Shown here: in pieces, positions 17,424-37,835 of the stretch
Numbering within the stretch: position 1 is the stretch's first letter
Layout: every line of letters starts with the position of its first letter
From: Prevotella sp.
Lineage (GTDB): Bacteria; Bacteroidota; Bacteroidia; Bacteroidales; Bacteroidaceae
DNA length: 37,835 nt
Assembly (NCBI GenBank): GCA_017474845.1
Contig: JAFVGS010000032.1
Span: 1-37,835, forward strand
Reading direction: 5' to 3'
The notes under the pieces: generated by a model
Database searches by the model: none
The model's input: only the letters and a program-made list of their open reading frames with translations
Told to the model about the DNA's origin: nothing
Program-made: the position numbers and the translations under genes

Positions 17424-17433
17424 AAAAAACGGG

Positions 17434-18558: not shown

Positions 18559-18621
18559 AGTTCCAAAATTCACAAAATATGTTTCAAAATTGACTGTTTT
18601 TGCCAATTTAAGGGGGAAACT

Positions 18622-18653: not shown

Positions 18654-18696
18654 CACCCCCGAAAACAGAAAATGTTTATCAGGATAACAGATAATA

Positions 18697-19668: not shown

Positions 19669-19670
19669 TT

Positions 19671-20162: not shown

Positions 20163-20167
20163 AAGGC

Positions 20168-20863: not shown

Positions 20864-20878
20864 TTTTGTTTTGATAAA

Positions 20879-20888
20879 GGGGGGGGGG
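20879..20888 (-). repeat. C10 homopolymer in the yhhQ leader
   Basis: Ten consecutive C on the coding (minus) strand, 15 nt upstream of the yhhQ ATG, after GGGGTCGACG, with which part of the run could pair. Such tracts slip easily and are also prone to sequencing error. Confidence 0.7.
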
Positions 20889-20907
20889 CGTCGACCCCTG
20901 TGTGTTA

Positions 20908-21894: not shown

Positions 21895-21917
21895 AAGATT
21901 TACTGATTTTAGATTGA

Positions 21918-22415
21918 TTACTCTTCGTCATCGAAGTCATCACCAAAGAAACTGTCGAAGTCGCCTTCCAATGATGGGCCGACGAAGGCGTCCATCGCAC
22001 GGCGGTCCTTCTTGGTAGGACGGCCGGTACCTCGGGCACGGTTCACGAAACCGCTGATGCGGTTCATCTCCAGGAGTTCGTACTGGTCTGGCGTCGTCAC
22101 ATTCTCATAGATTTCAGGAATCAACTTCGCCCCTACCCTCTGTTCGATGGTCTTCAGGATGCGGAAAGAATAGGTCACGGGAGGCTTACGGACACTGACC
22201 GTCTCGCCAACCTTGACGGTATGCGAGGGGTTCACGTTGACACCACCGATGGTCACACGGCCGTTCTTACAGGCGTCTGCCGCAATGGAGCGGGTCTTGA
22301 AGATCCGCGCTGCCCACAGCCATTTGTCGATACGGGCGAACCCACCCCCACCCCCTCCCGATGGGAGTGGTGATTGGTTACCTTTATGATTCATATCTCC
22401 ATGCATATACTTCAT
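21918..22415 (-). CDS. S4-domain RNA-binding protein (Hsp15-like)
   Basis: 165 aa. The S4 domain starts at about residue 27 (ARIDKWLWAARIFKTRSIAA, then CKNGRVTIGG and KVGETVSVRK) and resembles the heat-shock protein Hsp15, which binds free 50S subunits carrying nascent chains. An acidic C-terminal tail ends FGDDFDDEE. The first 26 residues (MKYMHGDMNHKGNQ, then a Gly-rich run) are not conserved and are encoded by a GC-rich inverted repeat shared with the 3' end of pth. It starts 8 nt after the pth stop. Confidence 0.88.
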   Translation of the reverse strand: MKYMHGDMNHKGNQSPLPSGGGGGGFARIDKWLWAARIFKTRSIAADACKNGRVTIGGVNVNPSHTVKVGETVSVRKPPVTYSFRILKTIEQRVGAKLIPEIYENVTTPDQYELLEMNRISGFVNRARGTGRPTKKDRRAMDAFVGPSLEGDFDSFFGDDFDDEE

Positions 22416-22466
22416 CGTAAAGTCTATTCAGACTCCCCTCCTCTGGGGAGGGGTTGGGGGTGGGTT
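22340..22466. repeat. GC-rich inverted repeat at the pth/S4 junction
   Basis: CCCACCCCCACCCCC (22341-22355) faces GGGGTTGGGGGTGGG (22450-22464) on the same strand, forming inverted ends of a roughly 125-bp segment. Within it are small hairpins CTCCC-GAT-GGGAG and CCCCTCC/GGAGGGG. The segment supplies the last codons of pth ([12 protein letters not shown]) and the first of the S4 gene. Confidence 0.6.
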
Positions 22467-23032
22467 TTCCCCAATTTATTAAATTGGTTCATGGTGACAT
22501 CAATCCCAGCGAGGACAAAGCTCTGGATGATCTCAACACCCAGGTCGATCGCGGGCTGGAGGGCCTTGAGTTCTTCCTCGGAATAACGGCCGAGTACCCA
22601 GTCGATCTGCATGCCACGGGGAAAGTCGTTGCCGATGCCCATACGCAAACGGGCATAGTCCTGACCGATGAGCTGTTGGATATGGCCGAGGCCATTGTGA
22701 CCACCGTTGGAGCCATTGGCCTTCAGGCGGAACTGCCCCAAGGGCAGCGCCACATCGTCGCTGATAACGAGCAGCCGCTTCTGATCGATGTTCTCCTTGT
22801 TCAACCAATAGCGCACGGCATTGCCGCTGAGGTTCATGAACGTGGAGGGCTTCAGCAGGAACACTTTCCGTCCCTTGACCGTTGTCTCGGCCACAAAGCC
22901 GTAGCGCCGGTCGTCAAAATGAATATTGGATGCCTTAGCAAAAGCATCCAATACCATAAACCCTGTGTTGTGGCGGGTGAGTTCGTATTCGTCACCGACA
23001 TTACCCAAGCCAACAATCAAGTATTTGTCCAT
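22424..23032 (-). CDS. pth: Peptidyl-tRNA hydrolase
   Basis: 202 aa. Pth releases tRNA from peptidyl-tRNAs that fall off the ribosome. Conserved residues are present: the catalytic His21 in LTRHNTGF, Asn in PSTFMNLSG, Asp in ISDDVALP and Asn in GSNGGHNGL. The final 15 residues ([14 protein letters not shown]) exceed the family core and derive from the GC-rich repeat at the junction with the S4 gene. It follows rplY on the same strand, a common pairing, with a 24-nt gap. Confidence 0.95.
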
Positions 23033-23038
23033 GAACTA

Positions 23039-23062
23039 CTGTAAACTGTAAACAGATTACTC
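23039..23062 (-). repeat. 24-bp repeat, copy 1 (rplY-pth)
   Basis: CTGTAAA twice, then CAGATTA and CTC on the plus strand. It is identical to 27849-27872. The stop codon of rplY lies inside it. Confidence 0.85.
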
Positions 23063-23656
23063 AGCAGCCTCGGCAGCAGCGGCAGAGCGCGATGCACGGG
23101 TAGCCTTCACGGAGCAGACAACCACCTGGGCAGGAGTTGCGATCTCGAGCCCCTCGAAGTTCAGGTCAGCCACCTTGATGGCCTTACCAAGGGCGAGCTT
23201 CGTCACGTCGATCTCCAGCGTCTCAGGAATCTGCTTGTAAGGAGCGGTCACATTCAGCTGACGCACAGCCTGGCTCAGACGACCACCATCGCGGACACCC
23301 TGGGCATGACCGGTCAGTTTCACGGGGATACCGATAGTAATGGGTTTCTCCTCGTTCACCTCGTAGAAGTCGATATGGAGCAGGGCATCCGTTGTGGGAT
23401 GGAACTGCAGTTCCTTCATCACGGCCTTGTGAGCCTCACCGTCGATGGTCAGGTTGACCACATACACATCGGGAGAATAGACGACCTTACGGAGCTGAGT
23501 AGCGGGGATTGCAAAAGCAACGGCCTCGGGAAGACCATTCTCACCCTTCTTCTCACCATAAAGATTACAGGGAACAAGTCCCTCCTTGCGCAGCTCCTTG
23601 GCTGCCTTCTTGCCTGTCGTGGCACGCTTCTGGCCACTTACACTGAATTCTTTCAT
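23057..23656 (-). CDS. rplY: Ribosomal protein bL25/Ctc
   Basis: 199 aa of the long, Ctc-type bL25. The N-terminal 5S rRNA-binding domain (VSGQKRATTGKKAAKELRKE, then GLVPCNLYG) is followed by the beta-rich Ctc domain (LLHIDFYEVNEEKPITIGIP and later). An Ala/Glu-rich tail ends the protein. It is the first gene of the minus-strand run rplY-pth-S4 and has a promoter box at 23751-23758, giving a leader of about 90 nt. Confidence 0.93.
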   Translation of the reverse strand: MKEFSVSGQKRATTGKKAAKELRKEGLVPCNLYGEKKGENGLPEAVAFAIPATQLRKVVYSPDVYVVNLTIDGEAHKAVMKELQFHPTTDALLHIDFYEVNEEKPITIGIPVKLTGHAQGVRDGGRLSQAVRQLNVTAPYKQIPETLEIDVTKLALGKAIKVADLNFEGLEIATPAQVVVCSVKATRASRSAAAAEAAE

Positions 23657-23750
23657 AATTTGTGTTACTCTAAATTAAGAATTTAATAATACTTGCCTAA
23701 TTCACCATCACACGTTACATTTTCTGATTGTGCTTTGAGAAAAAGCGGTG

Positions 23751-23758
23751 CAAAGGTA
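23751..23758 (-). promoter_or_regulatory. Promoter -7 box of rplY
   Basis: TACCTTTG on the minus strand, 94 nt upstream of the rplY ATG. Confidence 0.6.
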
Positions 23759-23829
23759 CACCTTTTTTCTGAAATGAGAAAATGAAAGCATGAAAAAATG
23801 AAAAAAAAGACGATTTTTCTCTTATTTTC

Positions 23830-23860
23830 TTGCATATACAAGGAATTTTCCCTACCTTTG
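23830..23860 (+). promoter_or_regulatory. Promoter of the nusB operon
   Basis: TTG (23830-23832), a 20-nt spacer and TACCTTTG (23853-23860), 32 nt before the nusB ATG. The upstream A-rich stretch contains near-repeats of ATGAAAA. Confidence 0.65.
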
Positions 23861-23892
23861 CATCAAGAAACAACAAATAAACATCAAGTGAG

Positions 23893-24942
23893 ATGATTAA
23901 CAGAGAGATTATCAGAAACAAAATTGTTCAGTTAACCTATGCCTACTATTTAAACGGTAACAAGAACATTGACACGGCTGAAAAGGAACTTTTTTTCAGT
24001 CTGTCCAAAGCGTATGACCTTTACAATCACCTGTTGTCGCTGATTGTCGCAGTGACCAAAGAGGCACAGCGCAGACTCGAAGTGACTCAGGGCAGAGCCA
24101 AGCGCGAAGGCACGGAAGAGCCCTCGCAGAAGTTTGCCTACAACCGCTTTGCCATCCAACTGCAGGAGAACAAGGCGCTGAATGAGTTCATCGGCAACCA
24201 GAAGACCAACTGGGCAGACACCCCTGTCCCAGGACAACTCTTCGAGACCATCGAACAGAGCCAGATCTACAAGGACTACATGGCCAGCAGCGAAGACACG
24301 TACGATGCCGACCGTGAGCTGTGGCGCAAGCTCTACAAGACGTTCATCCAGGAGAACCCCGACCTCGACAACGTGCTCGAGGACCAGAGCCTCTACTGGA
24401 ACGACGACAAGGAGATTGTGGACACCTTCGTGCTGAAGACCATCAAACGCTTCGCCGAACAGAACGGCACCAAGCAGGAACTGCTGCCCGAATGGGACAG
24501 CGACGAGGAGAAGGAGTTTGCCCGCAAGCTGTTCCGCTCCGCCATCCTCAATGAAGTGGAGTATCAGCACTACATGAACGAGGTGTCACGCAACTGGGAC
24601 CTCTCCCGTCTGGCCTACATGGACATCGTCATCATGCAGATTGCCATCGCCGAGCTAATGACCTTCCCCAACATTCCCGTCAGCGTGACCATCAACGAGT
24701 TTGTCGACATCGCCAAGCTCTATTCTACCTCGAAGAGTGGCGGTTACATCAACGGCATGCTCGATGCCATCGCCCGCAACCTCATCAGGACCAACCGTCT
24801 GATGAAGCACATGGATCCGCAGAAGGGCAGCCAGGAAGCCCCCACCCCGGATGAAGCTCCGGCAGAGATCAATGCCGTGCCCGTGAAGATGAGGCATCGC
24901 AAGTGCATTATCCGTAAAGACAACGACGAGAAAAAGGATTAA
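23893..24942 (+). CDS. nusB: Transcription antitermination factor NusB, long Bacteroidetes form
   Basis: 349 aa, about twice the length of E. coli NusB. The NusB fold lies at the C-terminal side (about residues 205-305: FARKLFRSAILNEVEYQHYM, RLAYMDIVIMQIAIAELM, VTINEFVDIAKLYSTSKSGG and the helix FINGMLD-like YINGMLDAIARNL). The N-terminal half (MINREIIRNKIVQLTYAYYL onward) is the extension usual in Bacteroidetes. NusB binds boxA RNA with NusE in rRNA antitermination. A charged tail follows residue 315. It is first in an operon with yajC, ybbR, coaE and a DUF5606 gene. Confidence 0.92.
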   Translation: MINREIIRNKIVQLTYAYYLNGNKNIDTAEKELFFSLSKAYDLYNHLLSLIVAVTKEAQRRLEVTQGRAKREGTEEPSQKFAYNRFAIQLQENKALNEFIGNQKTNWADTPVPGQLFETIEQSQIYKDYMASSEDTYDADRELWRKLYKTFIQENPDLDNVLEDQSLYWNDDKEIVDTFVLKTIKRFAEQNGTKQELLPEWDSDEEKEFARKLFRSAILNEVEYQHYMNEVSRNWDLSRLAYMDIVIMQIAIAELMTFPNIPVSVTINEFVDIAKLYSTSKSGGYINGMLDAIARNLIRTNRLMKHMDPQKGSQEAPTPDEAPAEINAVPVKMRHRKCIIRKDNDEKKD

Positions 24943-24967
24943 AATATAATATAATTAAGGTATAGAA

Positions 24968-25288
24968 ATGACAAACATCATCATCGCTGCACAGTCAGCA
25001 CAGGGAGGTGGCATGAGCATGATCATCATGATGGTCGCCATCTTTGCCATCATGTATTTCTTCATGATCAAGCCCCAGCAGAAGAAACAGAAGGAGATCC
25101 AGAAGTTCCAGAACGAACTGACCGAGGGCACGCAGGTCGTCACCGGCGGCGGCATCTACGGCACCGTGAAGAGCATCGACCTGGCCAAGAACACCGTCGA
25201 CGTGAAGATTGCACGTGACGTGGTCATCACCGTCGACAAGGGTTCCGTATTCAAAGATCCTTCCAGCACCCCACAGCCGCAGAAATAG
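24968..25288 (+). CDS. yajC: Preprotein translocase accessory subunit YajC
   Basis: 106 aa. One membrane segment (MIIMMVAIFAIMYFFMI) is followed by the signature KPQQKKQKEIQKFQNELTEG and TQVVTGGGIYGTV. YajC associates with SecDF and the SecYEG translocon at the inner membrane. It is 25 nt after nusB and 26 nt before ybbR. Confidence 0.95.
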   Translation: MTNIIIAAQSAQGGGMSMIIMMVAIFAIMYFFMIKPQQKKQKEIQKFQNELTEGTQVVTGGGIYGTVKSIDLAKNTVDVKIARDVVITVDKGSVFKDPSSTPQPQK

Positions 25289-25314
25289 AGAGAAAGAAAT
25301 AGCCACCACCGCGT

Positions 25315-26295
25315 ATGACCTTTCGAAGCGTATGGCGAGCCATCAGGGAGTTCCTGTTCACGAAAGCGAGCAAGGAATTCTTGATATTCCTGTTCTTCCT
25401 GGCTCTCTCGGGCATCTTCTGGCTGTCTCTGACACTCAACGAGACCTATGAACGCGAATTCGCCGTTCCCGTCTCTGTCGTTGGCATCCCCAAGAATGCC
25501 GTCCTCACTTCCGACGAGGTCGACACCGTCCGTGTCACCATCCGCGACAAGGGCATCATCCTCGTAGCCTATCGATACGGTGAGACCCTCAGCCGCATCG
25601 ACCTGCCTTTCCGCAACTATACGCACAACAACGGCACAGGCCTCATCCCGGCCTCGGAGATACAGAAGTACATCTACCAGCGGCTGGGCAGCAGTTCGAA
25701 GATCACCGCCATCAAACCCGAGAAGATGGAGTTCTATTACAGCTACGGTTCCAAGAAACAGGTGCCCGTTCGTTGGAGCGGGCGTGTCATTCCCGAAGAA
25801 CTCTACTTCATCTCGCGGGTGACATACAGTCCTGACAGCGTCACCATCTTTGCGTCGGAAGAGAAGCTCGACAGCATCAGCATGGTCTATACCGAACAGC
25901 TGAACTACGCCAACTTCCGCGACACGCTGACCGTAGACTGCAACCTGGCGAAGCTCAAGGGGGTGAAGACCGTTCCCGACCATGTACGCGTGAGTTTCTA
26001 CACCGACGTGCTGACCGAGGAGCGCATCTCCGGCATCCCCATCGTCGGCATCAATTTGCCCGAGGGTAAGGCGCTGCGCACCTTCCCCGCCAAAATCTCC
26101 GTCAGTTTCGTGGCAGGCGTCAGCGTCTACCGCAACCTGAAACCGGAGGACTTCACCGTCATTGTCGACTACAACGAGATACAGCGCAATCCCTCGGAGA
26201 AGTGCCGCATCTATCTGAAAGATACGCCAAGCGGCATCTCACGGGTGAAGTTAGAGACGACTATGGTTGACTATCTCATCGAATCACAGGAATGA
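25315..26295 (+). CDS. YbbR-domain membrane-anchored protein
   Basis: 326 aa. A single N-terminal membrane segment (KEFLIFLFFLALSGIFWLSL) is followed by a periplasmic beta-rich region with YbbR-like repeats (about residues 40-120 and 130-210, the latter with VRWSGRVIPEELYFISRVTY). In Firmicutes YbbR/CdaR regulates the c-di-AMP cyclase; no cyclase gene is nearby here. In Bacteroidetes it commonly stands between yajC and coaE. Its last codons overlap coaE by 4 nt (ATGA), which suggests coupled translation. Confidence 0.85.
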   Translation: MTFRSVWRAIREFLFTKASKEFLIFLFFLALSGIFWLSLTLNETYEREFAVPVSVVGIPKNAVLTSDEVDTVRVTIRDKGIILVAYRYGETLSRIDLPFRNYTHNNGTGLIPASEIQKYIYQRLGSSSKITAIKPEKMEFYYSYGSKKQVPVRWSGRVIPEELYFISRVTYSPDSVTIFASEEKLDSISMVYTEQLNYANFRDTLTVDCNLAKLKGVKTVPDHVRVSFYTDVLTEERISGIPIVGINLPEGKALRTFPAKISVSFVAGVSVYRNLKPEDFTVIVDYNEIQRNPSEKCRIYLKDTPSGISRVKLETTMVDYLIESQE

Positions 26296-26891
26296 AAATC
26301 GGCATCACAGGAGGTATCGGAAGCGGCAAGAGCTATGTCTGCCGGCTTTTGGAACAGCGGGGCTATAAGGTCTACGACTGCGACAGTGCCGCCAAGCGAC
26401 TCATCCGCACCTCACCTTTCATCCGTCGGCGTCTCACTGCTCTCATCGGACCGGAGACATATTTTAAGGAGTCAGGAGACAGCAGTCAGGAGTCAGGAGA
26501 ATACATTCTGAATAAGAAGGCTGTAGCTGAGTTCCTGTTAAAATCCGAGGACAATGCAAGAGCCATCGACCGCATTGTGCATCCCGCCGTCTTCCGAGAC
26601 TTCATCGAGAGCGGCATGGAGTGGATGGAGAGCGCCATCATCTACGAGTCGGGTATCTACCGCCTCGTCGACCGCGTCATTGTCGTCACTGCTCCTAAGG
26701 AACTGCGCATCCAGCGCGTCATAGCCCGCGACGAGATCTCACGGGAGAAAGTGCTCGAATGGATGAGCCGCCAGTTGCCACAGGAAGAGGTCAGGCAGCG
26801 CGCGGACTTCGAGATCGTCAACGACGAACAGGCTGACATCAACCGGCAACTGGATGACATATTGGGAAAAATTTATAATATATCAAAGTAA
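26292..26891 (+). CDS. coaE: Dephospho-CoA kinase
   Basis: 199 aa. It phosphorylates dephospho-CoA in the last step of CoA synthesis. The P-loop GGIGSGKS is at residues 7-14; YDCDSAAKRLIR and HPAVFRDF are the substrate-binding segments. Residues about 59-69 (KESGDSSQESGEY) form an insert encoded by a 7-bp tandem array at 26471-26498; family members usually run through here with a shorter loop. The rest looks intact, so it is probably active. It overlaps ybbR by 4 nt. Confidence 0.95.
   Translation: MKIGITGGIGSGKSYVCRLLEQRGYKVYDCDSAAKRLIRTSPFIRRRLTALIGPETYFKESGDSSQESGEYILNKKAVAEFLLKSEDNARAIDRIVHPAVFRDFIESGMEWMESAIIYESGIYRLVDRVIVVTAPKELRIQRVIARDEISREKVLEWMSRQLPQEEVRQRADFEIVNDEQADINRQLDDILGKIYNISK
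26471..26498 (+). repeat. 7-bp tandem array inside coaE
   Basis: GTCAGGA, GACAGCA, GTCAGGA, GTCAGGA: four heptamers in the coding frame. The gain or loss of one unit would shift the frame of an expectedly essential enzyme. Confidence 0.75.
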
Positions 26892-26922
26892 TAAATAACA
26901 ATAAATAAAGAAATAATAAATT

Positions 26923-27369
26923 ATGCAACAGACCATTTTAGCCATTTCCGGCAAGCCCGGACTCTACAAACTCGTTACCCGGGGTAAGAACAACCTCATC
27001 GTCGAGGCACTCGATACGACACACCGCCGCATGCCTGCTTTCTCCACAGACCGTATCACGTCGCTGGCCGATATCGCCATGTTCACCGAGACTGATGACA
27101 TTCCCCTGATGGACGTTCTGGAGAACCTCAAGACTCTTGAGGCAGCCAAGAAAGCCTCCGTCGATCCCAAGAAAGCCTCAACAAAGGAACTACAGGACTA
27201 CTTCACAAAGGTGTTGCCCGAGTGGGACCGTGATCGTGTCCACGTCAGCGACATCAAGAAGCTCATCAGCTGGTACAATATACTAATTGAAGCCGGCATT
27301 ACCGACTTCAAGGAAGAAATGCAACCCACCGAAGGCGATAATATCGACGATCGGAAGACGCAAGAATAA
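26923..27369 (+). CDS. DUF5606-family protein
   Basis: 148 aa. It begins ILAISGKPGLYKLVTRGKNN and continues VEALDTTHRRMPAFSTDRIT, matching the small Bacteroidetes family DUF5606, followed by VLPEWDRDRVHVSDIKKLIS and YNILIEAGITDF. No signal or membrane segment, so cytoplasmic; function unknown. It is the last gene of the nusB operon and lies 31 nt after coaE, behind an A/T-rich tandem stretch. Confidence 0.82.
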   Translation: MQQTILAISGKPGLYKLVTRGKNNLIVEALDTTHRRMPAFSTDRITSLADIAMFTETDDIPLMDVLENLKTLEAAKKASVDPKKASTKELQDYFTKVLPEWDRDRVHVSDIKKLISWYNILIEAGITDFKEEMQPTEGDNIDDRKTQE

Positions 27370-27377
27370 AACTCTGA

Positions 27378-27848
27378 TTAGAACTTGGCCATCTTAATGG
27401 CCACCACCGCACACTCGTCGCCCTTGTTGCCCAATCGGCCTCCGGCGCGGTCCTTGGCCTGCTGAAGATCATTCGTCGTCAGCAGGCCAAAAACTACGGG
27501 TATGTTACTGGTTGCATTCAGACGGGCAATGCCCTCTGTCACACCCTGACAGATATAATCGAAATGGGGGGTCTCACCACGGATCACGCTGCCGAGGATA
27601 ATCACGGCGTCGTAACCGTCGTTGAGCGTCATCTGGTGAGCACCGTAGATTAGTTCAAACGAACCGGGCACGGTCTTCACATGGATATTCTCGGGCAGAG
27701 CGCCATGCTTCTCCAACGTGGAGACGCAGCCATCGAGCAGAGCCCCGGTAATCTCGGGATTCCACTCGGCGACAACTACACCGAAGATCATGTTCGATGC
27801 GTCAGGCACCTGTTGTGCATTATACTCTGACAGGTTCTTTGTAGCCAT
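27378..27848 (-). CDS. ribH: 6,7-dimethyl-8-ribityllumazine synthase
   Basis: 156 aa. It condenses the ribityl-pyrimidine intermediate with dihydroxybutanone phosphate in riboflavin synthesis. Family motifs: [56 protein letters not shown] (with the catalytic-type His) and [20 protein letters not shown]. It lies 18 nt after a TPR-protein gene and shares that gene's promoter. It converges on the DUF5606 gene with 8 nt between stops. Confidence 0.95.
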
Positions 27849-27872
27849 CTGTAAACTGTAAACAGATTACTC
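27849..27872 (-). repeat. 24-bp repeat, copy 2 (TPR gene-ribH)
   Basis: Identical to 23039-23062 and built from CTGTAAA twice plus CAGATTA and CTC. As in copy 1, the stop codon of the upstream minus-strand gene falls inside the CAGATTA unit. Confidence 0.85.
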
Positions 27873-28547
27873 TGAACAGCGCTCGATATAAGCGTCGATC
27901 GTCTGATAAGCCATCGAGTTGTAGTACTTCTCCTTCACCGTCTGATACAGTTTCAGAGCTTCGTCCTTCTTACCCTGGCTCTCGAGAATCTCACCAGCCT
28001 GAATCAGGAACGTGGGAGACAGCGAGTTGTTGTCAGCCTTCTCGGCAGCCTTCTTCAACGTGGCCACAGCTTTGTCCAGCAGGTTCTGGTGGGCATAGGC
28101 ATTACCCAGTGCTCCGAGGGCGGCAGGAGAGATCATCTGGTCATCGGCACCGTCATAATTCTCCAGATACTTCACGGCGTCATCCCACTTGCCGAGCTGG
28201 GCGTTGCAGAGTCCGGCATAGAGGTTTGCCAAGTTACCGGCAGCGGTGCTGCTATAGTCACTGGCCAGCTTGACGAAGCCCTTATAGCCTGTGCTGTCAC
28301 CCAGGAGAGCCTTCTCGAACTGACCCTGGGCGAAATACTCCTGACCCTTGGCGATGGCCGTGGAAGCCTTCTGCTCGTTGGGTTCTGAAATATAAGTCTT
28401 GTAAAGTACGACACCAGCGATGATGACAATCAGAGCCACCACAGCGGCGATGATGGCCTTCTTGTACTTCAGGAAGAAAGCCTCACTCTTGTTCAGGGTC
28501 TCCTCCATCGTAGGAGCTGCCTGAGGTTGATTTTTTGTTGTTGCCAT
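27867..28547 (-). CDS. Membrane-anchored TPR protein
   Basis: 226 aa. A short cytoplasmic N-terminus (MATTKNQPQAAPTMEETLNK) and one membrane segment (about residues 33-50, AIIAAVVALIVIIAGVVLY) lead to a periplasmic TPR-type solenoid: AIAKGQEYFAQGQFEKALLG, NLANLYAGLCNAQLGKWDDA, ALGNAYAHQNLLDKAVATLK and QAGEILESQGKKDEALKLYQ. The layout is like YfgM, which assists the Sec translocon with periplasmic chaperones; direct orthology is not shown. It leads the two-gene unit with ribH, from a promoter box at 28582-28589. Confidence 0.85.
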   Translation of the reverse strand: MATTKNQPQAAPTMEETLNKSEAFFLKYKKAIIAAVVALIVIIAGVVLYKTYISEPNEQKASTAIAKGQEYFAQGQFEKALLGDSTGYKGFVKLASDYSSTAAGNLANLYAGLCNAQLGKWDDAVKYLENYDGADDQMISPAALGALGNAYAHQNLLDKAVATLKKAAEKADNNSLSPTFLIQAGEILESQGKKDEALKLYQTVKEKYYNSMAYQTIDAYIERCSE

Positions 28548-28581
28548 TATAATATTTGTATTATTTTTCGAAAATCGGCTG

Positions 28582-28589
28582 CAAAGTTA
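28582..28589 (-). promoter_or_regulatory. Promoter -7 box of the TPR-ribH unit
   Basis: TAACTTTG on the minus strand, 34 nt before the ATG at 28547. Confidence 0.6.
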
Positions 28590-28599
28590 CAAAAAAAAA

Positions 28600-28675
28600 G
28601 TAAAAGTGAAAAACGAAAAGTGAAAAATTTGCTTCCGCTGCATAAAATTATCCGTTATCCATTATCCATTATCCA
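28600..28675. repeat. A-rich and heptamer repeats upstream of recF
   Basis: An A-rich stretch with repeated AAGTGAAAAA-like units (about 28601-28630) is followed by four heptamers at 28648-28675: TTATCCG, then TTATCCA three times. These are the reverse-complement type of the NAATGGA units elsewhere in the window. Confidence 0.7.
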
Positions 28676-28684
28676 TTTTTTTCG

Positions 28685-28692
28685 TACCTTTG
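28685..28692 (+). promoter_or_regulatory. Promoter -7 box abutting recF
   Basis: TACCTTTG ends only 4 nt before the recF ATG. If used, transcription would begin at or near the start codon. No clear TTTG is present 19-20 nt upstream, where the heptamer array lies instead. Confidence 0.5.
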
Positions 28693-28696
28693 CACT

Positions 28697-29788
28697 ATGA
28701 TTTTAGAGAAACTGTCGCTCATCAACTATAAGAACATCCGGGAGGCCACGCTCGACCTCTCGCCGAAGATTAACTGCATGATCGGCAGCAACGGCGTCGG
28801 TAAGACCAACATTCTCGATGCCGTCTACTTCCTCTCCTTCTGCCACTCCGCCTCCAATCCCATCGACTCCGCCGTCATCCGCCACGGCGAGGATTTCCTG
28901 ATGCTCGAGGGGAACTATGGCGAAGTCACCATTTCCTGTGGCATGAAGCGTGGCATGAAGAAGCATTTCCGTCGCGACAAGAAAGAATACCGCCGACTGT
29001 CGGAGCACATCGGACTCATCCCTTTAGTGATGGTATCCCCTGCTGACACCCTCCTTATCGACGGTGGCAGCGAGGAGCGCCGACGGCTCATGGACATGGT
29101 CATCTCACAATACGACCACACCTACATGGAGTCAGTCAACCGTTACAACAAGGCCTTGCAACAGCGTAACACCATGCTCAAACAGGAAACGGAGCCCGAT
29201 CCCGACGTCATCAGCCTCTGGGAGGAGCAGATGGCCGTCGAAGGCGAACGCATCTACCAGCGTCGCGATGCCTTCGTCCGCGAACTCACGCCCATCTTCC
29301 AGCGCTACTACGAACGTATCTCCGGCAACCGCGAACAGGTTGCTATCGAATACGTCTCTCATTGTCAGCGGGGTTCCCTCCTCGAGGTCATCCAGCGCGA
29401 CCGCGCCAAAGACCGCATCATGGGCTACTCCCTGCACGGTGTCCACCGCGACGACCTCATCTTCACCCTTGGCGGCCATCCCATCCGCCGCGAAGGTAGC
29501 CAAGGTCAGCACAAAACCTTCGTCGTCGCACTGAAGCTTGCTCAGTTCGACTTCCTCCGTCGTACCAACGGCGGCAACACCCCTATCCTACTCCTCGATG
29601 ACATCTTCGACAAGCTCGATGCCAGCCGTGTCGAACAGATCGTCACCCTCGTCGCCGGAGAGGAGTTCGGTCAGATCTTCATCACCGACACCAACCGTTC
29701 GCATCTCGACCAGATCCTCGCCGCCTCCTCCCACGACTACAAGATCTTCCACGTCAATAATGGTGAAGTAAATGTTCAAACGCAATAG
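28697..29788 (+). CDS. recF: DNA replication/repair protein RecF
   Basis: 363 aa, full length. The Walker A motif GSNGVGKT is at residues 30-37, the signature-type segment REGSQGQHKT near 265 and the Walker B ILLLDDIFDKLD near 300, as in RecF. The start MILEKLSLINYKNIREATLD aligns with the family N-terminus. RecF loads RecA at gaps with RecO and RecR. It overlaps the next gene by 17 nt, the usual recF-DUF721 pairing. Confidence 0.95.
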   Translation: MILEKLSLINYKNIREATLDLSPKINCMIGSNGVGKTNILDAVYFLSFCHSASNPIDSAVIRHGEDFLMLEGNYGEVTISCGMKRGMKKHFRRDKKEYRRLSEHIGLIPLVMVSPADTLLIDGGSEERRRLMDMVISQYDHTYMESVNRYNKALQQRNTMLKQETEPDPDVISLWEEQMAVEGERIYQRRDAFVRELTPIFQRYYERISGNREQVAIEYVSHCQRGSLLEVIQRDRAKDRIMGYSLHGVHRDDLIFTLGGHPIRREGSQGQHKTFVVALKLAQFDFLRRTNGGNTPILLLDDIFDKLDASRVEQIVTLVAGEEFGQIFITDTNRSHLDQILAASSHDYKIFHVNNGEVNVQTQ

Positions 29789-30062
29789 CACACTTATTAA
29801 GGACATCATCCTCAAGAACCTCCGAGATCAAGGATTAGAGACGCCCCTCCTCCAGAAGCGCCTCATCGACTCATGGCCCGAGGTCATGGGCGACGCCATC
29901 GCATCATATACCGCCAACCTCTGCATCCGCAACCAGACGCTCTTCGTTCACCTCACCAGTCCCGCCCTTCGCATGGAGCTCTCCATGCAGCGTCAGGACA
30001 TCGTCCGCCGCCTCAACGAACACGTCGGCAACCAAGTGATCGCCGACGTGAAGTTCAATTGA
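29772..30062 (+). CDS. DUF721 (DciA-like) protein
   Basis: 96 aa. SWPEVMGDAIASYTANLCIR followed by TLFVHLTSPALRMELSMQRQ and a C-terminal VIADVKF fits the DUF721/DciA family. DciA proteins load or support the replicative helicase in bacteria lacking DnaC. The gene starts inside the end of recF, so translation is probably coupled, and both act in DNA replication. Confidence 0.85.
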   Translation: MFKRNSTLIKDIILKNLRDQGLETPLLQKRLIDSWPEVMGDAIASYTANLCIRNQTLFVHLTSPALRMELSMQRQDIVRRLNEHVGNQVIADVKFN

Positions 30063-30099
30063 ATCTACAGTTCCTATAACAGGTATATCTTCTGTCTCA

Positions 30100-32049
30100 T
30101 CATCTTATTATCTGCATATTCTTTGTGTCCATCAAATGACGGTCAGTGAGTTTGAGGTTGGGGATGACGGGCAGCGCCATGAAGGCCATGGTGATGAAGG
30201 GCGACTTCATCGTACAGCCAATGTCGCGCACCATCTCGCAGAGCATCATCGTTCGGAAAGCTATCTCATACCCCGACAACGGAGCCATCAGGCCGGCAAT
30301 GGGCAGCGGGATGTCGTTCTCCTCGTCGGCACTGACCACCACCAGTCCGCCCCCCATCTCAATGACTCGGTTGACAGCCCGCACGATGTACCCGTCGTTG
30401 GATCCTATGGCCACAATGTTATGGCAGTCGTGAGCCACCGAGCCGGCGATGGCCCCATTGGAGATGCCGAACCCGTGTATCAGCCCTACCATAGGCTTTG
30501 CCCCAGGCTGATAGCGGTTGTAGACCACTATTTTCTCTACCTCCAGCCATGGATGGGTGTCGCTGAACATACTTGCTCCCATGTGCCATACTTCGTGTCC
30601 GGTGACCAGGCTGCCGTCTTTCGCGTTGATGATATGTTCGGCATCGCCAGGCTTGACTTGGTAGAAGATGTCTTCTTCTGTGATGGGTGCAGCCACGAAG
30701 TTGTTGGGATAATCCTGATTGGCATTCATGTCAAACACCTCGTTGGCCATGTCGACGGCTTCGCTGGTACGCTCCAACAACAGTCTATAGGTGCTGATGT
30801 CGTACATGGTCGATGTCACGTCCTCCCTCAGTGTACGCTCTGCCTCGTCGAGTGCACTCTCCTCGCGCTCCACCCATGCCTTAGCGGCTGCATGGCGGCT
30901 CTTGGCGGCTCCGTGATCCATCAGCGGCACACTGAGCGTGACGGCTCCAAGGGCATACAGCTTCTGGTCGCGGAATGCATGGCCTAGCACATTGTCCACC
31001 TGCTGCATACCCACATTGACATCGAGGGCAACGTTGATGCCCTTCTCCTTGTATGCCTTCTGCTCCTGATGGCGCGACTCGGTGAGGGTGGCTATCTGGT
31101 GCTGGTAGACGGGACTGTTGGCCAGGGCCATGTCAATGGCCTGGGCGGTCGAAAGTTTGATGTTTTTGGGATTGCGTGGATACTCGAGGCGCATCGTCGG
31201 TGACAGACTGTCGCCGCAGAGTCTCAGGAAGGAAGCTAACTGTGTGCGGGCCACCTCTTCCTCAGTACGGGCCATGGCCAGTGCGTTGGCGACATTGACG
31301 CGTTGCAGTTCCATTGAGCGCAGTTCGGCTATGGTCACCATCGCGATACTGGCTTTCTCGCGGGCGATGGCACAGAGTGTGTCGGCTGTCTGCAGGTTGC
31401 TCTGGTACATTTCCAACTCCCCTTGTGTGCAGACCAGTCGGAAGAAGCGCTGTGTCACCTCTTCGGCTATGCGGTTCTTGTCATATTCGTGTTGCTGACG
31501 GGCAGCTTTCAACCGCTGGTCTTCGACGGCTTTCTCCCAGCGGTAGGGATTGTAGCCCAAGAGCGTCTGGCGGTAGCCCACCAGGAGGGGGGCAGCCATG
31601 AATTGTCTGGCCTCTGTCGCCTGTGAGTTGAAGTATTCGCTCCAGATCGCCTGTGTGCCGATATAGGCCTCGCCACCCCAATTGAGCATCTTCTGGGTGA
31701 GCTTGACGCTGGCTGCCGCCGACAGATTGTCGTAGTTGCGCAGATAGACGTAATCGCGGGAGAGGTCGCTGACCAGACGTGAGTAGTTCGGTGCCACACG
31801 AAGGGTCAGTTGCGGCTTCCGCAAGGCGGTGAACTCATCGTAGTGCAGCTGGTAATAGTCGTACTCGTGCTGGCTCTGGAAGGCGATGATCGTACTGTCC
31901 TGTGCCTGGCGGATGGCCTGCTCAAGGCTCAGCTGCGGCTGAGCCTTGCAATGGATAATGGACAATGGACAATGGATAATTGCTGCGCACAGCAAGAGCC
32001 GCAACAGCCATTTCCCAGATCCTATTATCTTATTCCTGTATGTAATCAT
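30100..32049 (-). CDS. Chimera: TolC-like outer-membrane factor fused to adenine deaminase C-terminal domain
   Basis: 649 aa from the ATG at 32049 (a TTG at 32058 is less likely). A signal peptide leads to a TolC/OEP domain (to about residue 444) closely similar to the TolC-like protein at 36760-37835; both have GMQQV, LYALG and PLMDHGAAK. Where that protein continues with YANGLCDINTF and a last helix of about 45 residues, this one changes (about 30700-30727) into NFVAAPITEEDIF and on through YNRYQPGAKPMVGLIHGFG, SVAHDCHNIVAIGSND and IPLPIAGLMAPLSGYE, the adenine deaminase C-terminal domain (about 200 residues). The metal-binding amidohydrolase part is absent. Neither half looks complete. It is last in the export operon, 19 nt after the ABC gene. 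A real deletion fusion or an assembly misjoin would both explain it. Confidence 0.85.
   Translation of the reverse strand: MITYRNKIIGSGKWLLRLLLCAAIIHCPLSIIHCKAQPQLSLEQAIRQAQDSTIIAFQSQHEYDYYQLHYDEFTALRKPQLTLRVAPNYSRLVSDLSRDYVYLRNYDNLSAAASVKLTQKMLNWGGEAYIGTQAIWSEYFNSQATEARQFMAAPLLVGYRQTLLGYNPYRWEKAVEDQRLKAARQQHEYDKNRIAEEVTQRFFRLVCTQGELEMYQSNLQTADTLCAIAREKASIAMVTIAELRSMELQRVNVANALAMARTEEEVARTQLASFLRLCGDSLSPTMRLEYPRNPKNIKLSTAQAIDMALANSPVYQHQIATLTESRHQEQKAYKEKGINVALDVNVGMQQVDNVLGHAFRDQKLYALGAVTLSVPLMDHGAAKSRHAAAKAWVEREESALDEAERTLREDVTSTMYDISTYRLLLERTSEAVDMANEVFDMNANQDYPNNFVAAPITEEDIFYQVKPGDAEHIINAKDGSLVTGHEVWHMGASMFSDTHPWLEVEKIVVYNRYQPGAKPMVGLIHGFGISNGAIAGSVAHDCHNIVAIGSNDGYIVRAVNRVIEMGGGLVVVSADEENDIPLPIAGLMAPLSGYEIAFRTMMLCEMVRDIGCTMKSPFITMAFMALPVIPNLKLTDRHLMDTKNMQIIR
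31949..31980 (-). repeat. 7-bp tandem array encoding a signal-peptide core
   Basis: On the plus strand: CAATGGA, TAATGGA, CAATGGA, CAATGGA and a partial TAAT. Read on the coding strand it gives AIIHCPLSIIHCK, part of the signal peptide of the TolC-like chimera. One unit more or less would shift the frame. Confidence 0.75.
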
Positions 32050-32068
32050 AATTATCAACTCTCAATTC

Positions 32069-34144
32069 TCATTGAATCAGATCTTTCACTTTCTCATAGG
32101 GACCGTCGGCCGCCACACGCCCGTTGCGCAGCACGATGACGCGGTTGCACTGCTGGATAGTGCTCAGGCGGTGAGCAATGACAATACGCGTACATTTTAG
32201 TTTGGCGAGATTCTCAACAACGATGTGCTGGCTGATATTGTCGAGTGCCGATGTAGCCTCGTCGAGGAAGAGTACCGTGGGGTTTCTTACCAATGCACGG
32301 GCAATCAGTATTCGCTGCCGTTGTCCGCCCGACACGCCTTTACCGTCAACAGTGATGGGTGTATCCATGCCTAAGGGGAACTGGCGGATGTCACCGTCGA
32401 GGGCAGCCAGATGGGCGGCCTCCCAGGCATCATCGTCTGTCAACAGCGGATCATTGAAGATGATATTGTCGCGGATGGTACCCTCAATGAGCTGGCCGTC
32501 TTGCATACAGATGCCGATGCAGTACCGTCTTAGGCTGCGCAGATTAATGTCGCTCAGGTCATACTGGTCGTAGAAGACGGATCCGGCCAAGGGATGTTCC
32601 AGTCCAAGCATAAGGCGCATCAGCGTGCTCTTGCCGCAGCCAGAACCTCCGACAAGTGCCACGTAGTCACCACTGTTGATGGTCAGGTTGAGACCATCGA
32701 AGAGCAGGGGCATGTTTTCGGCATAGCGAAACTTCAGGCCACGTATCTCCATCTGGCCCGTTATGCTCTTTACCACCTGGCGGTTGTCCTTGAATTCAGG
32801 CATTGCCGCCATGATAGGCTGGCAAAGTCGTATCTCAGGTAACAAGCGAGCCCCATCCTTTGTAATATTCTGCAGCTGCATCATCGCTTCGTTGACAAGC
32901 ATCAGTACAGCGCAATAGGCAATATAGTCGGAGAGTGACAGACCATAATACCAGGCAGCCCACATGGTTACTATCATGGGCATCAGTTTCATGCAATAGG
33001 AAATGCCGTTTACATAGAAACTGGCTATGGGTTGACGACAGCTGTATATCTCTGATGGAGCATATGCCTTTGCCCACTGAAGGAAGGCCCGGAACTCTGC
33101 ACCACTGGTCTTGAGTTTCTGGATGCCAGAGAACAAGTCGAACAGTGTACCTACAAGATGTGAGCCTTCATTGTTCACGTTCAATTGCACTCTCCTCGTA
33201 TAGTAAAAAACCAGTACAATGGTAGCAAATTGTATGATCATGACAACGATGCCAGTATAAAATAATGGGCCGCCATAGATGAAGAACTGCACGAACATAA
33301 TGCCGGAAAAGAGGAAGGTGAGTATGGTCGATAAAAAGCTGACTGTGAGATTAGAACTGACACGTGATATCGACAACAGGCGGTTGGATAGGTCGCCGGG
33401 TGAGAACTTCTTGGCAAATGTGGCGGGCAACAGCAGTAGGCGCGACATGAAGGCCGTTTGCAGCGCATGCTCCACCTTGTCCTTGATACGAACAACTACC
33501 AAGTTGCGAGCAATCTGTACCATCGCCAGGCCAATGGCAGCGCTGAATAGTAGCGTGACAATGGGCACAATCTGGCTGGCATCGCCCGAGGGGATGACCT
33601 CCGAGAAGATCAGTTTGCACACGTATGGTGTGAACATGGTCAGCAAAATAACACTTACGCAAGCCACCAGGCTGTAAAGGAAATCATACTTGCAGAGACT
33701 ACTCACGGCATAACGTACAATTCCCTTGACGGTCAGTTCACCGTCTGAAAAAGGAAAGCAGGCAATCACTGCCTTTTTCTTCAGCAGGTGGGCACTTTTG
33801 CTCGCCCTCATGCCCTCGCCTGTCTTGGGATGGACGAAAGTATAGTCCGTGAAGCCGGGTACGAGTATAACAGGCGAGTCGTCATCGGCCATAAATCCTA
33901 ACATATAGCCCGTACAAAGGCGCCACCAGCCTTCGGTCAGCTTGATACTACGGAAAAAGACGTTATATTTATCAAGCAATGTCTCTATCTGCTCTAAGTC
34001 CTGGGGCAAGTCCACGCTTGATTCCATCTGCTTCCACAGCTTACGGTCTATCATGGAACGCAGGATTTCCAACGTCTTCTTCATGGCCCTGCGGTCACCG
34101 TCCATGCGCTGGGACAACTGCTGAAGGAATAAATTCGTTTCCAT
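32069..34144 (-). CDS. ABC transporter, NHLP/NHLM bacteriocin-exporter ABC2 type
   Basis: 691 aa. The N-terminal domain (about 1-155) reads LTEGWWRLCTGYMLGFMADD, SPVILVPG, VHPKTGEGM and FPFSDGELTVKGIVRYAVSS, the arrangement typical of the ABC2 protein of NHLP-type exporters. Six membrane segments follow (about 160-430), then the ATPase with Walker A GGSGCGKST, signature VSGGQRQR, Walker B VLFLDEATSAL and H-loop IAHRL. It should pair with the ABC protein encoded 4 nt upstream and export a peptide-like product through HlyD and TolC partners. No C39 peptidase domain is present. Confidence 0.82.
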   Translation of the reverse strand: METNLFLQQLSQRMDGDRRAMKKTLEILRSMIDRKLWKQMESSVDLPQDLEQIETLLDKYNVFFRSIKLTEGWWRLCTGYMLGFMADDDSPVILVPGFTDYTFVHPKTGEGMRASKSAHLLKKKAVIACFPFSDGELTVKGIVRYAVSSLCKYDFLYSLVACVSVILLTMFTPYVCKLIFSEVIPSGDASQIVPIVTLLFSAAIGLAMVQIARNLVVVRIKDKVEHALQTAFMSRLLLLPATFAKKFSPGDLSNRLLSISRVSSNLTVSFLSTILTFLFSGIMFVQFFIYGGPLFYTGIVVMIIQFATIVLVFYYTRRVQLNVNNEGSHLVGTLFDLFSGIQKLKTSGAEFRAFLQWAKAYAPSEIYSCRQPIASFYVNGISYCMKLMPMIVTMWAAWYYGLSLSDYIAYCAVLMLVNEAMMQLQNITKDGARLLPEIRLCQPIMAAMPEFKDNRQVVKSITGQMEIRGLKFRYAENMPLLFDGLNLTINSGDYVALVGGSGCGKSTLMRLMLGLEHPLAGSVFYDQYDLSDINLRSLRRYCIGICMQDGQLIEGTIRDNIIFNDPLLTDDDAWEAAHLAALDGDIRQFPLGMDTPITVDGKGVSGGQRQRILIARALVRNPTVLFLDEATSALDNISQHIVVENLAKLKCTRIVIAHRLSTIQQCNRVIVLRNGRVAADGPYEKVKDLIQ

Positions 34145-34148: not shown

Positions 34149-35900
34149 TCAGGCGTATTTTAAGAGATTGCTATACAGACCGTCCATCTGTCTCAGTTCG
34201 TCGTGAGTACCATGCTGGGTGATGCGTCCGTGTTCTACCACGTAAATCTGGTCGCAACCGGCAATGGTCTCCAACCGGTGGGCAATCATGATCATGGTCA
34301 TACCCATGTCGTAGAGATGCTTCATCAACTTAGCCTCTGTCTGGGGATCCAAGGCAGAGGTGGCCTCATCCATCAGCAGGATGGTGGGCTCCTTAGCCAG
34401 TGCTGTGGCTATCTCGATGCGCTGCCGCTGTCCGCCGCTGAAGTTCTTGCCGCGCTCCATGACGGCTCCCTGATAGGCACCCGGACGTTCCAGAATCTCG
34501 TGGTGTATCTGCGCATCATTGCATGCCAGCACCATGGCAAAGTTCTCTATCGACTCGTCCCACATCTTCACGTTGTCTGCAATAGTGCCCTCAAAGAGCA
34601 CCACGTCCTGATTGATGACCGATACCGAGTTGACAAACGTCATACGTTCGATGTCCTTGCGCGGCTTGCCGTCAAATAGCACCTCACCCTCCCAGGGTTC
34701 ATACAGCCCTGACACGAGGCTCAGTACCGTGCTCTTACCACAGCCCGAGGGGCCTACCAGGGCTATGCGCTCACCAGCCTTGATCTTCAACGAGAAATGG
34801 TTGAGGATGGGTGGCAGGCTGCGGTCGTAGCCGAAGGTGACATCGCGCAACTCTATCTCTCCCGTCAGTTTCGCTATATCAGGCAGATCGTCGCCTTCAG
34901 GCAGGCTCAACTCTGCGCTTTCCTGACCAAAGTCAGTCACGTCCTTGATACGCTGGATGCTCGAGTGGGCTCTTAGTACGCCCATGATGCTTTCAATGGT
35001 TTTATTGATGGGAAAGACAGCCTCGTTAATCATTCCCTGCGAGGCCAGAATCATACCAGGTGTCAGTTCACCATCCATGACATACCAGGCACCCATACAT
35101 AGTATAGAAGCATTGGTGAGTTGTAGCATCAGCTGCGGTACAACACTCAGGAAGATGGTATTCGTCGAGGATTTGACGCGGGCATTGATTGATTGCGTAT
35201 AGATTTCTTCCCAGCGTTCAAAGAAATACTGCTCGCTTCCTAACGACTTGATCGTTTCCAGATTGCTCATGCCCGTCATCGTGACATTCTGAAGTCGTGC
35301 CTCCGTCACCTCCAGATCCATAGCATACTGCTTCTGCAGCTTGGAAGTGGTACGCATCACATAAAGCAGCATGAGAACAGCGAAAATCTCTAATATAGCC
35401 AGTTTCCAACTATAAGATATAAGGATATAACAGCATAGAATAGGTACAAGCATTAAGACCAGAGCAGGCGATGCAGTGTCCAGCGACTTAACTGTTTTTG
35501 ATATGCTTGTATAGCGTGCCACCAGTTCGCCTGCTGTGAATTGGGTCAGAAGTGACAACGGCAGCCGAAACACAGTCCATATATATTTCGTAGATAAAGT
35601 AATGATGATTCTTGCATAACTCTTTCTGCGTATGACGGAGAACGATGTCCAGATGGCAAGCTCTATCACAAACAACGCGACATAGAACACCATCAGCGGG
35701 GCAAACCACTCAGGATTCTTGTGCGTGATGATATTGTCGGTATAGACCTGCTGGAACAACGACGGGAAGATGCGAGTCGGAATGTCAAAAGAATAGATCG
35801 TGACACTGGAGAGGATGAACAATATATTACCCTTAAGGAAAAACTTAAGGGCAGAAACTACCGATAACTTCGACTGGCGATTAGGCTTTTCCTGCATCAT
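34149..35900 (-). CDS. ABC transporter, NHLP/NHLM ABC1 type lacking the peptidase domain
   Basis: 583 aa. The membrane domain (about 20-310, starting KGNILFILSSVTIYSFDIPT) and the ATPase (Walker A GPSGCGKST, signature FSGGQRQR, Walker B ILLMDEATSAL, H-loop IAHRLE) resemble the transmembrane/ATPase part of NHLP ABC1. The usual N-terminal C39 leader-cutting peptidase is missing: the protein starts directly before the first membrane segment, and there is no room for it upstream because the hlyD-like gene ends 18 nt before. It lies 4 nt before the ABC2 gene; the two proteins probably form a heterodimer. Confidence 0.8.
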   Translation of the reverse strand: MMQEKPNRQSKLSVVSALKFFLKGNILFILSSVTIYSFDIPTRIFPSLFQQVYTDNIITHKNPEWFAPLMVFYVALFVIELAIWTSFSVIRRKSYARIIITLSTKYIWTVFRLPLSLLTQFTAGELVARYTSISKTVKSLDTASPALVLMLVPILCCYILISYSWKLAILEIFAVLMLLYVMRTTSKLQKQYAMDLEVTEARLQNVTMTGMSNLETIKSLGSEQYFFERWEEIYTQSINARVKSSTNTIFLSVVPQLMLQLTNASILCMGAWYVMDGELTPGMILASQGMINEAVFPINKTIESIMGVLRAHSSIQRIKDVTDFGQESAELSLPEGDDLPDIAKLTGEIELRDVTFGYDRSLPPILNHFSLKIKAGERIALVGPSGCGKSTVLSLVSGLYEPWEGEVLFDGKPRKDIERMTFVNSVSVINQDVVLFEGTIADNVKMWDESIENFAMVLACNDAQIHHEILERPGAYQGAVMERGKNFSGGQRQRIEIATALAKEPTILLMDEATSALDPQTEAKLMKHLYDMGMTMIMIAHRLETIAGCDQIYVVEHGRITQHGTHDELRQMDGLYSNLLKYA

Positions 35901-35918: not shown

Positions 35919-36767
35919 TTACGGATTTGAGGGCGGGAGGCTTTGTACAGTTATAAATGCTGTCATGCCTGGCGCCAGATGCGGATGCGGTTGTAGCGTG
36001 GCTTCCACGTGTCTCATGCCATTGTCATCAACCGCACCGACGCCTGAAATCGTAGCAGGATGCTGCTCTGAGGGGAATGCAACGGTAGAGACGGTGAGAA
36101 TGGCTCCATCCCAATATCGCGCCACTTCGTTTTCGAGTACGTCGAAACTTACCTTCAGATGCTCTATATCCACAATATAGAAAAGGGCTTCGCCCGGCTG
36201 GGCCATACCATAGAGCGTGTTCTGAATTTTGATGACATATCCAGAAATGGGGGCGGTAATGGTACAATAGGACAGTTCATGCTCCAGTTCGTGCAGCTCG
36301 GCCCTCGCTTCGTTATATCCACTGCTGATACGAGCCATTTTCTTGATGTTTTCAGGTGCTGCATCCAGGTTGTCGTGCTTATAGCCCTGCCCCATCAGAA
36401 TGGCCTGATACTGGAATTCGGCTTTCTCCAGTTTAGCACGGCTGTGGGCTATCTTCTCACGCAAGGCAGCGTCGCTAAGTCGTGCAACAACCTGACCTTT
36501 CCTGACTTCCTGTCCGCTATTCTCTATGGCGAACATAACAATCTGTTCTCCGATACGACTATAGACAGGAACCTCGCGCACTGCTTCTATCTTCCCCTTG
36601 ATAGCAGTTGAAAAATTCGGAGCCTCTTGGGGCGAAGGGGCTTTTGTCGATTGCACAGCAGTCGTATCACTCTGCTGAGGAGTGGATTTCACGTCGCCTT
36701 TCGACTGACAAGCAGTGAGAAGTGAAAAGAGCGTGACGAATAGTGAAATACTGATATACTTATTCAT
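35919..36767 (-). CDS. HlyD-family periplasmic adaptor lipoprotein
   Basis: 282 aa. A lipoprotein signal ends at LLTAC with Cys20. Then come the biotinyl-lipoyl-like segment (REVPVYSRIGEQIVMFAIEN, EVRKGQVVARLSD), a helical hairpin (LREKIAHSRAKLEKAEFQYQ to about residue 150), the second lipoyl half (CTITAPISGYVIKIQNTLYG) and a beta-barrel domain. It should bridge the inner-membrane ABC pair and the TolC-like channel. Its ATG overlaps the stop of the upstream TolC-like gene by 8 nt, so translation is coupled. Confidence 0.85.
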   Translation of the reverse strand: MNKYISISLFVTLFSLLTACQSKGDVKSTPQQSDTTAVQSTKAPSPQEAPNFSTAIKGKIEAVREVPVYSRIGEQIVMFAIENSGQEVRKGQVVARLSDAALREKIAHSRAKLEKAEFQYQAILMGQGYKHDNLDAAPENIKKMARISSGYNEARAELHELEHELSYCTITAPISGYVIKIQNTLYGMAQPGEALFYIVDIEHLKVSFDVLENEVARYWDGAILTVSTVAFPSEQHPATISGVGAVDDNGMRHVEATLQPHPHLAPGMTAFITVQSLPPSNP

Positions 36768-37835
36768 AATTGATGAGAGTTTGCAGATGATAGTGGCTCA
36801 CCCAGAATTCTTCCAAGGCAGCCAGGTAATTAGTGTAGGCAGTAGCCCATCGCGACTCTGCCAGAGTGAAGGTGTTGATGTCACAAAGACCGTTGGCATA
36901 GTTGTCGGCCGTCTCATTGTACGTCTCTTCTGCCAATTTGATGGTCTTTTCGGTGCTGATAAGCCTGTCTCTGCTGGATTGCAGCTTCTGCAGCGTCACA
37001 GCGGCATCTTCTGCCAACAGACGCTCAACCTCCTGGGATGCCAGTTCCTGTCGGTTCGCCCAGGCCGTAGCTTTCTCATGACGCTTTTTGGCTGCACCAT
37101 GATCCATCAGCGGTATTGAAAACTGCACGGAGCCTAAAGCATACAATTGCTGGTTCTTGTAGGCACTGCCGAATGTATTATTGACTTGTTGCATTCCCAG
37201 ATTGATGTCAAGCCCGACATTGATGCCCCGCTCTTTGCGCGCCTTGTATTCCTGATGGCGCGCTTCGGTAAGCTCTGCCAGCTGGTGCTGGTATGCCGGA
37301 CTGTTGGACAAGGCAAGCTTTACGACCTCCTCCGATGTATAGCTGACAGGAGGGAGCATATCTGGTATGCTTAATAGGGGCAGGTCGGCAGGCAATTGTT
37401 CCAAGCGCAACAAGGATGCCAGCTCTGTCCTTGCATTCTGCTCATCTTTTCGCGCCACTTCCACCTGGTTGGCGGCATTCTGCTGCTGCACCTCTATTGA
37501 GTGTAGTTCTGCCAGAGTGACGATAGCAATTGTTGCTTTCTCGCGGGCAATGGCCAGAAGTGTGTCGTTCAAATACATTTCCTCTAAACGCATCTGCAAC
37601 ACCCGTTGCTTACACGCTAAGCGGAAGTAGCGCACGGCTGCTTCTTCGGCAAGAAGTCGCAGATCGTACTCATGTTGACAACGTGCTGCCTTCAGACGCT
37701 GGTCTTCCACCCTTTTCTCCCAACCGAAGGGGTTGTAGCCCAACAGTTCATGACTATAGCCTACCAACAGCGGACTGGCCACGAACTGTCGTGGGTATCC
37801 TGAGGCTTCTTCACGGAAGAACTCACTCCAAATGG
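36760..37835 (-). CDS. TolC-like outer-membrane factor, 5' end beyond the window
   Basis: At least 358 codons; the frame stays open to the right edge (reading IWSEFFREEASGYPRQFVAS there), so the start lies outside. It shows the TolC/OEP pattern of long helices with repeated halves, LLGYNPFGWEKRVEDQRLKA, GLDINLGMQQV, YALGSVQFSIPLMDHGAAKK and a complete C-terminal helix ending TLINYE. It is the intact counterpart of the truncated TolC-like part at 30717-32049 and the first visible gene of the export operon. It should form the outer-membrane exit duct. Confidence 0.88.
   Translation of the reverse strand, partial: IWSEFFREEASGYPRQFVASPLLVGYSHELLGYNPFGWEKRVEDQRLKAARCQHEYDLRLLAEEAAVRYFRLACKQRVLQMRLEEMYLNDTLLAIAREKATIAIVTLAELHSIEVQQQNAANQVEVARKDEQNARTELASLLRLEQLPADLPLLSIPDMLPPVSYTSEEVVKLALSNSPAYQHQLAELTEARHQEYKARKERGINVGLDINLGMQQVNNTFGSAYKNQQLYALGSVQFSIPLMDHGAAKKRHEKATAWANRQELASQEVERLLAEDAAVTLQKLQSSRDRLISTEKTIKLAEETYNETADNYANGLCDINTFTLAESRWATAYTNYLAALEEFWVSHYHLQTLINYE

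Follow-up and report, generated by a model that had tools for sequence, protein, structure and literature searches.

The window, by which we mean the whole 37,835-nucleotide stretch of Prevotella sp. DNA analysed here, contains a minus-strand open frame of 649 codons, from an ATG at 32049 to the stop at 30100–30102, in which the front of a TolC-like outer-membrane factor is continued by the back of adenine deaminase (ade). This frame is most likely a broken gene junction and not a new protein, and we lean towards a recent, one-off deletion scar as its origin. The preliminary description had offered a deletion scar, a misassembly and a new fusion as explanations. The first two fit the data and the third is disfavoured: the junction was found in one genome only, the TolC end and the deaminase barrel are lost, and the two halves show no sign of a long shared history.

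The single frame with a TolC-like front and an ade C-terminal back, as originally described, was borne out by Pfam and NCBIfam matches, and both domain assignments are far above chance. The best Pfam OEP stretch covers residues 303–440 and profile positions 3–138 of 187, so that the second OEP repeat is interrupted at position 138. The paralogous TolC on the same contig (36763–37782) does carry on where the fused frame departs from the family, as had been claimed, with an OEP match extending to position 186 of 187. The N-terminus is hydrophobic when read by eye and presumably a signal peptide, and genes for HlyD and an ABC exporter lie next to the frame, the expected context of a TolC gene. 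On the deaminase side, Pfam Adenine_deam_C matched residues 503–645 (profile 25–168 of 169, E 2.8e-47), and the NCBIfam ade model TIGR01178 matched residues 444–648 from model position 347 to 550 of 552, with a score of 185 against a cut-off of 472.5. No amidohydrolase match was listed, and the ade model was matched only from position 347. Compared with G160, the nearest relative found, the TolC part has 90% amino acid identity over 440 residues and the ade part 86% over 204 residues. For an open joined frame to arise, two genes on the same strand need merely be joined in frame, which we estimate to happen about one time in three. A repeat of ≈32 bp, which occurs about a dozen times across other contigs and this one, has copies within the presumed signal-peptide stretch (31950–31981) and at 28646–28677.

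Table 1. Positions of the fused frame, its join and the neighbouring genes in the window.
Feature	Position	Strand	Remarks
recF	28697..29788	+	94% amino acid identity to G160; name from the preliminary description
DUF721 gene, complete	29772..30062	+	G160 copy equal in length; name from the preliminary description
37-bp spacer between the stops of DUF721 and the ade part	30063..30099	.	the two genes converge here with intact ends
Adenine deaminase C-terminal (lid) domain, residues 444–649 and stop	30100..30720	-	natural ade 3' end present, no catalytic barrel
Join	30719..30722	-	coding direction ATG AAT GCC / AAT CAG GAT TAT
TolC/OEP portion of the frame, residues 1–443	30721..32049	-	lacks the last 48–49 residues of the family
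ABC transporter 2 of exporter	32069..34144	-	changes from G160-like to C81/G032-like DNA at ≈32160
ABC transporter 1 of exporter	34149..35900	-	–
HlyD-type membrane fusion protein	35919..36767	-	–
Second, paralogous TolC	36760..37833	-	C-terminus complete, 5' end cut by contig end; 95% to G032 copy

DNA alignments to relatives placed the switch from TolC to ade at 30720/30721, inside the interval of 30700–30727 given in the preliminary description. The ade DNA of G160 aligns to 30106–30721 at 87%, and the ade alignments of four further relatives end at 30708–30715. From the other side, the exporter alignment begins at 30721 in G160 and G245, and at 30703 in three other relatives. The overlap at the join that is common to both G160 parent genes amounts to ≈1 bp. 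In G160, the hexamer GAGAAC is present after the break in TolC and before the break in ade, with neither copy found in the fusion. This hints at short homology near the break, as judged from the genes of G160.

Compared to the TolC/OEP outer-membrane factors (PF02321) of ABC exporters with HlyD, the fused frame is alike in its N-terminal 443 residues and in its place after ABC2, but the C-terminal 48–49 residues are replaced. This lost segment includes 19 columns that are invariant in 17 relatives, and the same 19 were invariant in an 18-sequence TolC alignment made without the window. Compared to adenine deaminase (ade/adeC; TIGR01178; PF13382; PDB 3NQB; YerA 9JQL), the frame has a near-complete C-terminal domain with its natural end, but no amidohydrolase barrel and hence no metal site. 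The C-terminal region of YerA is described as a non-catalytic lid that folds and crystallises alone (structure 9JQL), with the metal ligands in the barrel (PMC12133300), and OprM is reported to lose function with VceAB when 20 of its C-terminal residues are removed (PMC8277102). Because both the conserved TolC end and the catalytic barrel are lost, the fused protein is predicted to lack channel function as well as deaminase activity.

A working fusion would be an outer-membrane channel with a periplasmic deaminase lid domain serving as a binding or plug module. Such a protein would make sense of the open frame and of two halves that are not clearly decayed, and it could draw on the ability of the YerA lid to fold by itself and on TolC-like proteins with extra C-terminal regions, such as Bucl8 (PMC8277102). 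In Bucl8, the extra region likewise lies behind the TolC-like part, but that part is described there as canonical, whereas here it is cut. Since the frame has lost the conserved residues, has a broken second OEP repeat and occurs in a single genome, and since youth explains the lack of decay equally well, we consider a working fusion very improbable. Equally improbable is a newborn expressed chimera, an exported channel-type protein that would show the lid domain in the periplasm before selection or decay had acted.

Whether the same junction recurs elsewhere, a point raised in the preliminary description, was answered in the negative: the fusion was found in 0 of 397 other genomes in a genus sample and in 0 of 398 in a family sample, two overlapping sets. 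The genus sample comprised 398 genomes, of which 73 matched (E ≤ 1e-40), and the family sample 399 genomes, of which 113 matched (E ≤ 1e-30); at most three candidates per genome were scored in both. In a sample of 60 relatives, 29 genomes matched (E ≤ 0.001). The three samples share genomes, and each includes the source genome (G000), which is 59% complete and consists of 93 contigs. The matches that reached furthest across the join covered 29 residues on one side (415–643, G705) and 11 on the other (18–454, G492), and resemble normal frames of ade or TolC. TolC and ade are separate genes in G160 and in the other listed matches. None of 346 matching plasmid records covered 80% of the fused query in one place, and a degenerate pattern for the junction peptide had no matches in genome_contigs or viral_contigs, where own or very near records were possibly excluded. 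The architecture was thus confined to one genome in the genome, plasmid and peptide-pattern searches, and a family of such fusions was rejected for these collections. A literature search for such a fusion, or for in-frame deletion chimeras, returned nothing pertinent among the matches listed.

The divergence from G160 is similar for the TolC part (dS 0.358, dN 0.060), the ade part (dS 0.440, dN 0.078) and the flanking recF (dS 0.407, dN 0.029), and both halves therefore look native to the lineage of recF. Their GC3 values are also close (72.9, 71.4 and 76.4, respectively). A foreign origin of the ade piece was rejected, as its divergence resembles that of recF and of two genes on contig C12 of the source genome, a permease (dS 0.488) and buk (dS 0.538). 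The dN/dS ratios of the ade part (0.178) and the TolC part (0.168) are higher than those of recF (0.072), the permease (0.027) and buk (0.022), and are within the range of other ade pairs with the window or G160 (0.091–0.246). At ade columns invariant in 25 other sequences, the window is altered at 1 of 69 and single sequences at 0 to 6; at near-invariant columns, the window is altered at 7 of 107, G160 at 6 of 107 and the others at 0 to 13. When the ade amino acid changes were polarised with L064/L065, 10 fell to the window, 9 to G160 and 8 were ambiguous; with the 24 remaining ade sequences together as outgroup, these counts were 7, 4 and 16. For TolC, four outgroups gave 13 changes in the window, 12 in G160 and 21 ambiguous, and 1 of 128 columns invariant in 17 relatives was altered before the break. 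The frame contains no stops and its changes are balanced with those of G160, unlike an old, decayed pseudogene, and an old fusion under decay was rejected on the polarised counts. These comparisons make it unlikely that a useless fusion has persisted for long; since neither half is clearly decayed, the join would be either very young or not present in the cell.

The fusion itself carries little weight, as a single broken junction, and serves as a caution against inferring domain fusions from single incomplete genomes. Its surroundings are more useful, starting with a site that is disrupted both here and in G160. In 22 of 24 relatives examined (from 30 in which recF was found), DUF721 is faced by fau and/or an S41 protease gene, names that were read from the sequences; the exceptions are G034 and G160. 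The DUF721|fau pair is broken in the source genome, G160 and G034. A single contig of G160 carries both S41-fau and DUF721-recF, separated by ≈19 kb of other genes (C191, about 14240–33260; L173/L076). The disrupted site supports a rearrangement at this place, though not the join itself. Contig C13 of the source genome carries fau-S41 next to a SpoIIE-domain gene, which shares 69% identity with the one at the head of G160's exporter operon; genes of this kind head the exporter in G160, G175 and G348. This arrangement agrees weakly with an exporter island at the site; the support is weak because further SpoIIE-like matches lie on contigs C18, C54 and C23 of the source genome. An exporter beside fau or recF was not found in seven exporter loci of relatives, nor was fau found on the exporter contig of G160.

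The preliminary description had suggested that ade originally stood beside recF-DUF721 and that the export operon was joined onto it. The first part was unsupported in relatives: among 30 asked, 3 gave no recF, and recF and ade were on one contig in 1 of the 27 with both, ≈290 kb apart in the one-contig genome G274 (the relatives are mostly drafts, in which contig ends limit linkage). In G160, ade adjoins the permease, which the source genome has on contig C12 without ade. The second part fared better, in that it is plausible that the exporter was brought into the DUF721 site, where G160 likewise has ≈19 kb of other genes. A dispersed repeat lies upstream of recF (28580–28638, with matches of up to ≈120 bp) and occurs at ≈25 other places in the genome and also in G033 and G160.

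The HlyD-ABC-ABC-TolC-HlyD exporter operons occupy sites that vary from genome to genome, and they appear to recombine. Among 18 annotated loci of relatives, 15 have the order HlyD1-ABC1-ABC2-TolC-HlyD2, two are truncated where their contigs end, and one, in G306, has the tandem order HlyD1-ABC1-ABC2-TolC'-HlyD'-ABC1-ABC2. The order in the window is TolC'-HlyD'-ABC1-ABC2-TolC::ade. Since G306 shares the HlyD'-ABC1 order, we rejected the idea that this is another anomalous join. The TolC gene and the last part of ABC2 are ≈90% like G160, and to the right of ≈32160 the DNA resembles contig C81/G032 and is ≈75% identical to G160. This switch makes ABC2 a mosaic; compared with G160, ABC2 and ABC1 have dS values of 1.418 and 1.608 and, unlike the two halves of the fused frame, do not look native to the lineage of recF. 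The switch (32141–32200) could mark a place where exporter operons recombined, or else another misjoin. Contig C81, from the same genome, terminates at a position matching 32141, and a collapsed repeat (the ABC2 end and TolC start) was not supported as the cause of the contig ends.

In the deletion that we favour, an illegitimate, short-homology event in this lineage would have fused the distal TolC gene of a tandem exporter cluster, at codon 443, to an ade gene located downstream in the same direction, at approximately codon 354, in an island between DUF721 and fau. Lost in the deletion would be the end of TolC, the HlyD gene usually found behind it and the catalytic barrel of ade, at least 2 kb in all, and the frame would have remained open by chance. 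Export may go on via the paralogous upstream TolC, the two copies being presumably redundant. The fused gene would then be like the deletion-fusion pseudogenes that arise from illegitimate recombination, which we take to run from mid-gene to mid-gene, with minimal homology and in a single genome; it differs from them in that the frame happens to remain open.

This deletion is favoured by the separate TolC and ade genes of G160 and the other listed matches, by the like divergence and GC3 of the two halves and recF, which give no sign of a foreign piece, and by the sharp mid-gene break with its minimal overlap and adjacent hexamer, which is unlike a repeat-driven assembly join. The split of DUF721 and fau in G160 as well, with the exporter on the DUF721 side and the SpoIIE gene on the fau side here, and the precedent for a tandem exporter order point in the same direction. 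Furthermore, searches of the rest of the 59%-complete assembly for the ade barrel, the TolC end and its HlyD2, in which the DNA searches scored 40 of 82–146 candidates, found no orthologue and nothing beyond weak matches to paralogues on the contig of the window itself; at this completeness, the absence favours deletion only modestly. The deletion is weakened by its occurrence in one fragmented, incomplete genome and by a DUF721|ade neighbourhood that is unsupported elsewhere, leaving two unconfirmed borders of the ade piece. It also needs ade downstream of TolC-HlyD, an order seen in no exporter or ade locus examined, and the high divergence of ABC2 and ABC1 from G160 makes the contig a mosaic.

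Undecayed halves would also be expected if the join is absent from the cell, and an intact TolC and an intact ade may have been wrongly joined through a chimeric molecule, a strain mixture or a misjoin. We regard such an assembly or library artefact as a serious possibility, less probable than the deletion. It would account for a junction in a single incomplete genome whose halves both evolve like intact genes, on a contig that also changes origin within ABC2. Nor are chimeric contigs uncommon among metagenome assemblies: one comparison gives 22.15 per genome for megahit and 2.63 for SPAdes, counted as joins between different reference genomes (PMC11261854). However, an overlap of ≈1 bp is too short for an overlap-driven misjoin, the halves diverge like recF, so that any misjoin would be within one lineage, the ade and DUF721 gene ends are both complete, and the missing pieces have no orthologous match in the assembly, a weak argument at its completeness.

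Some further genes were observed around the exporters. A VapE/BT4734-type gene adjoins the exporter in contig C81 (L111, 1571–3658), and in G031 a short fragment (L063, 4644–4826) and a longer gene (12483–14642) with similar starts, as read by eye, flank the exporter. This arrangement hints at mobility. A Bro-N domain gene is located at the start of the contig, at 36–704 in the window.
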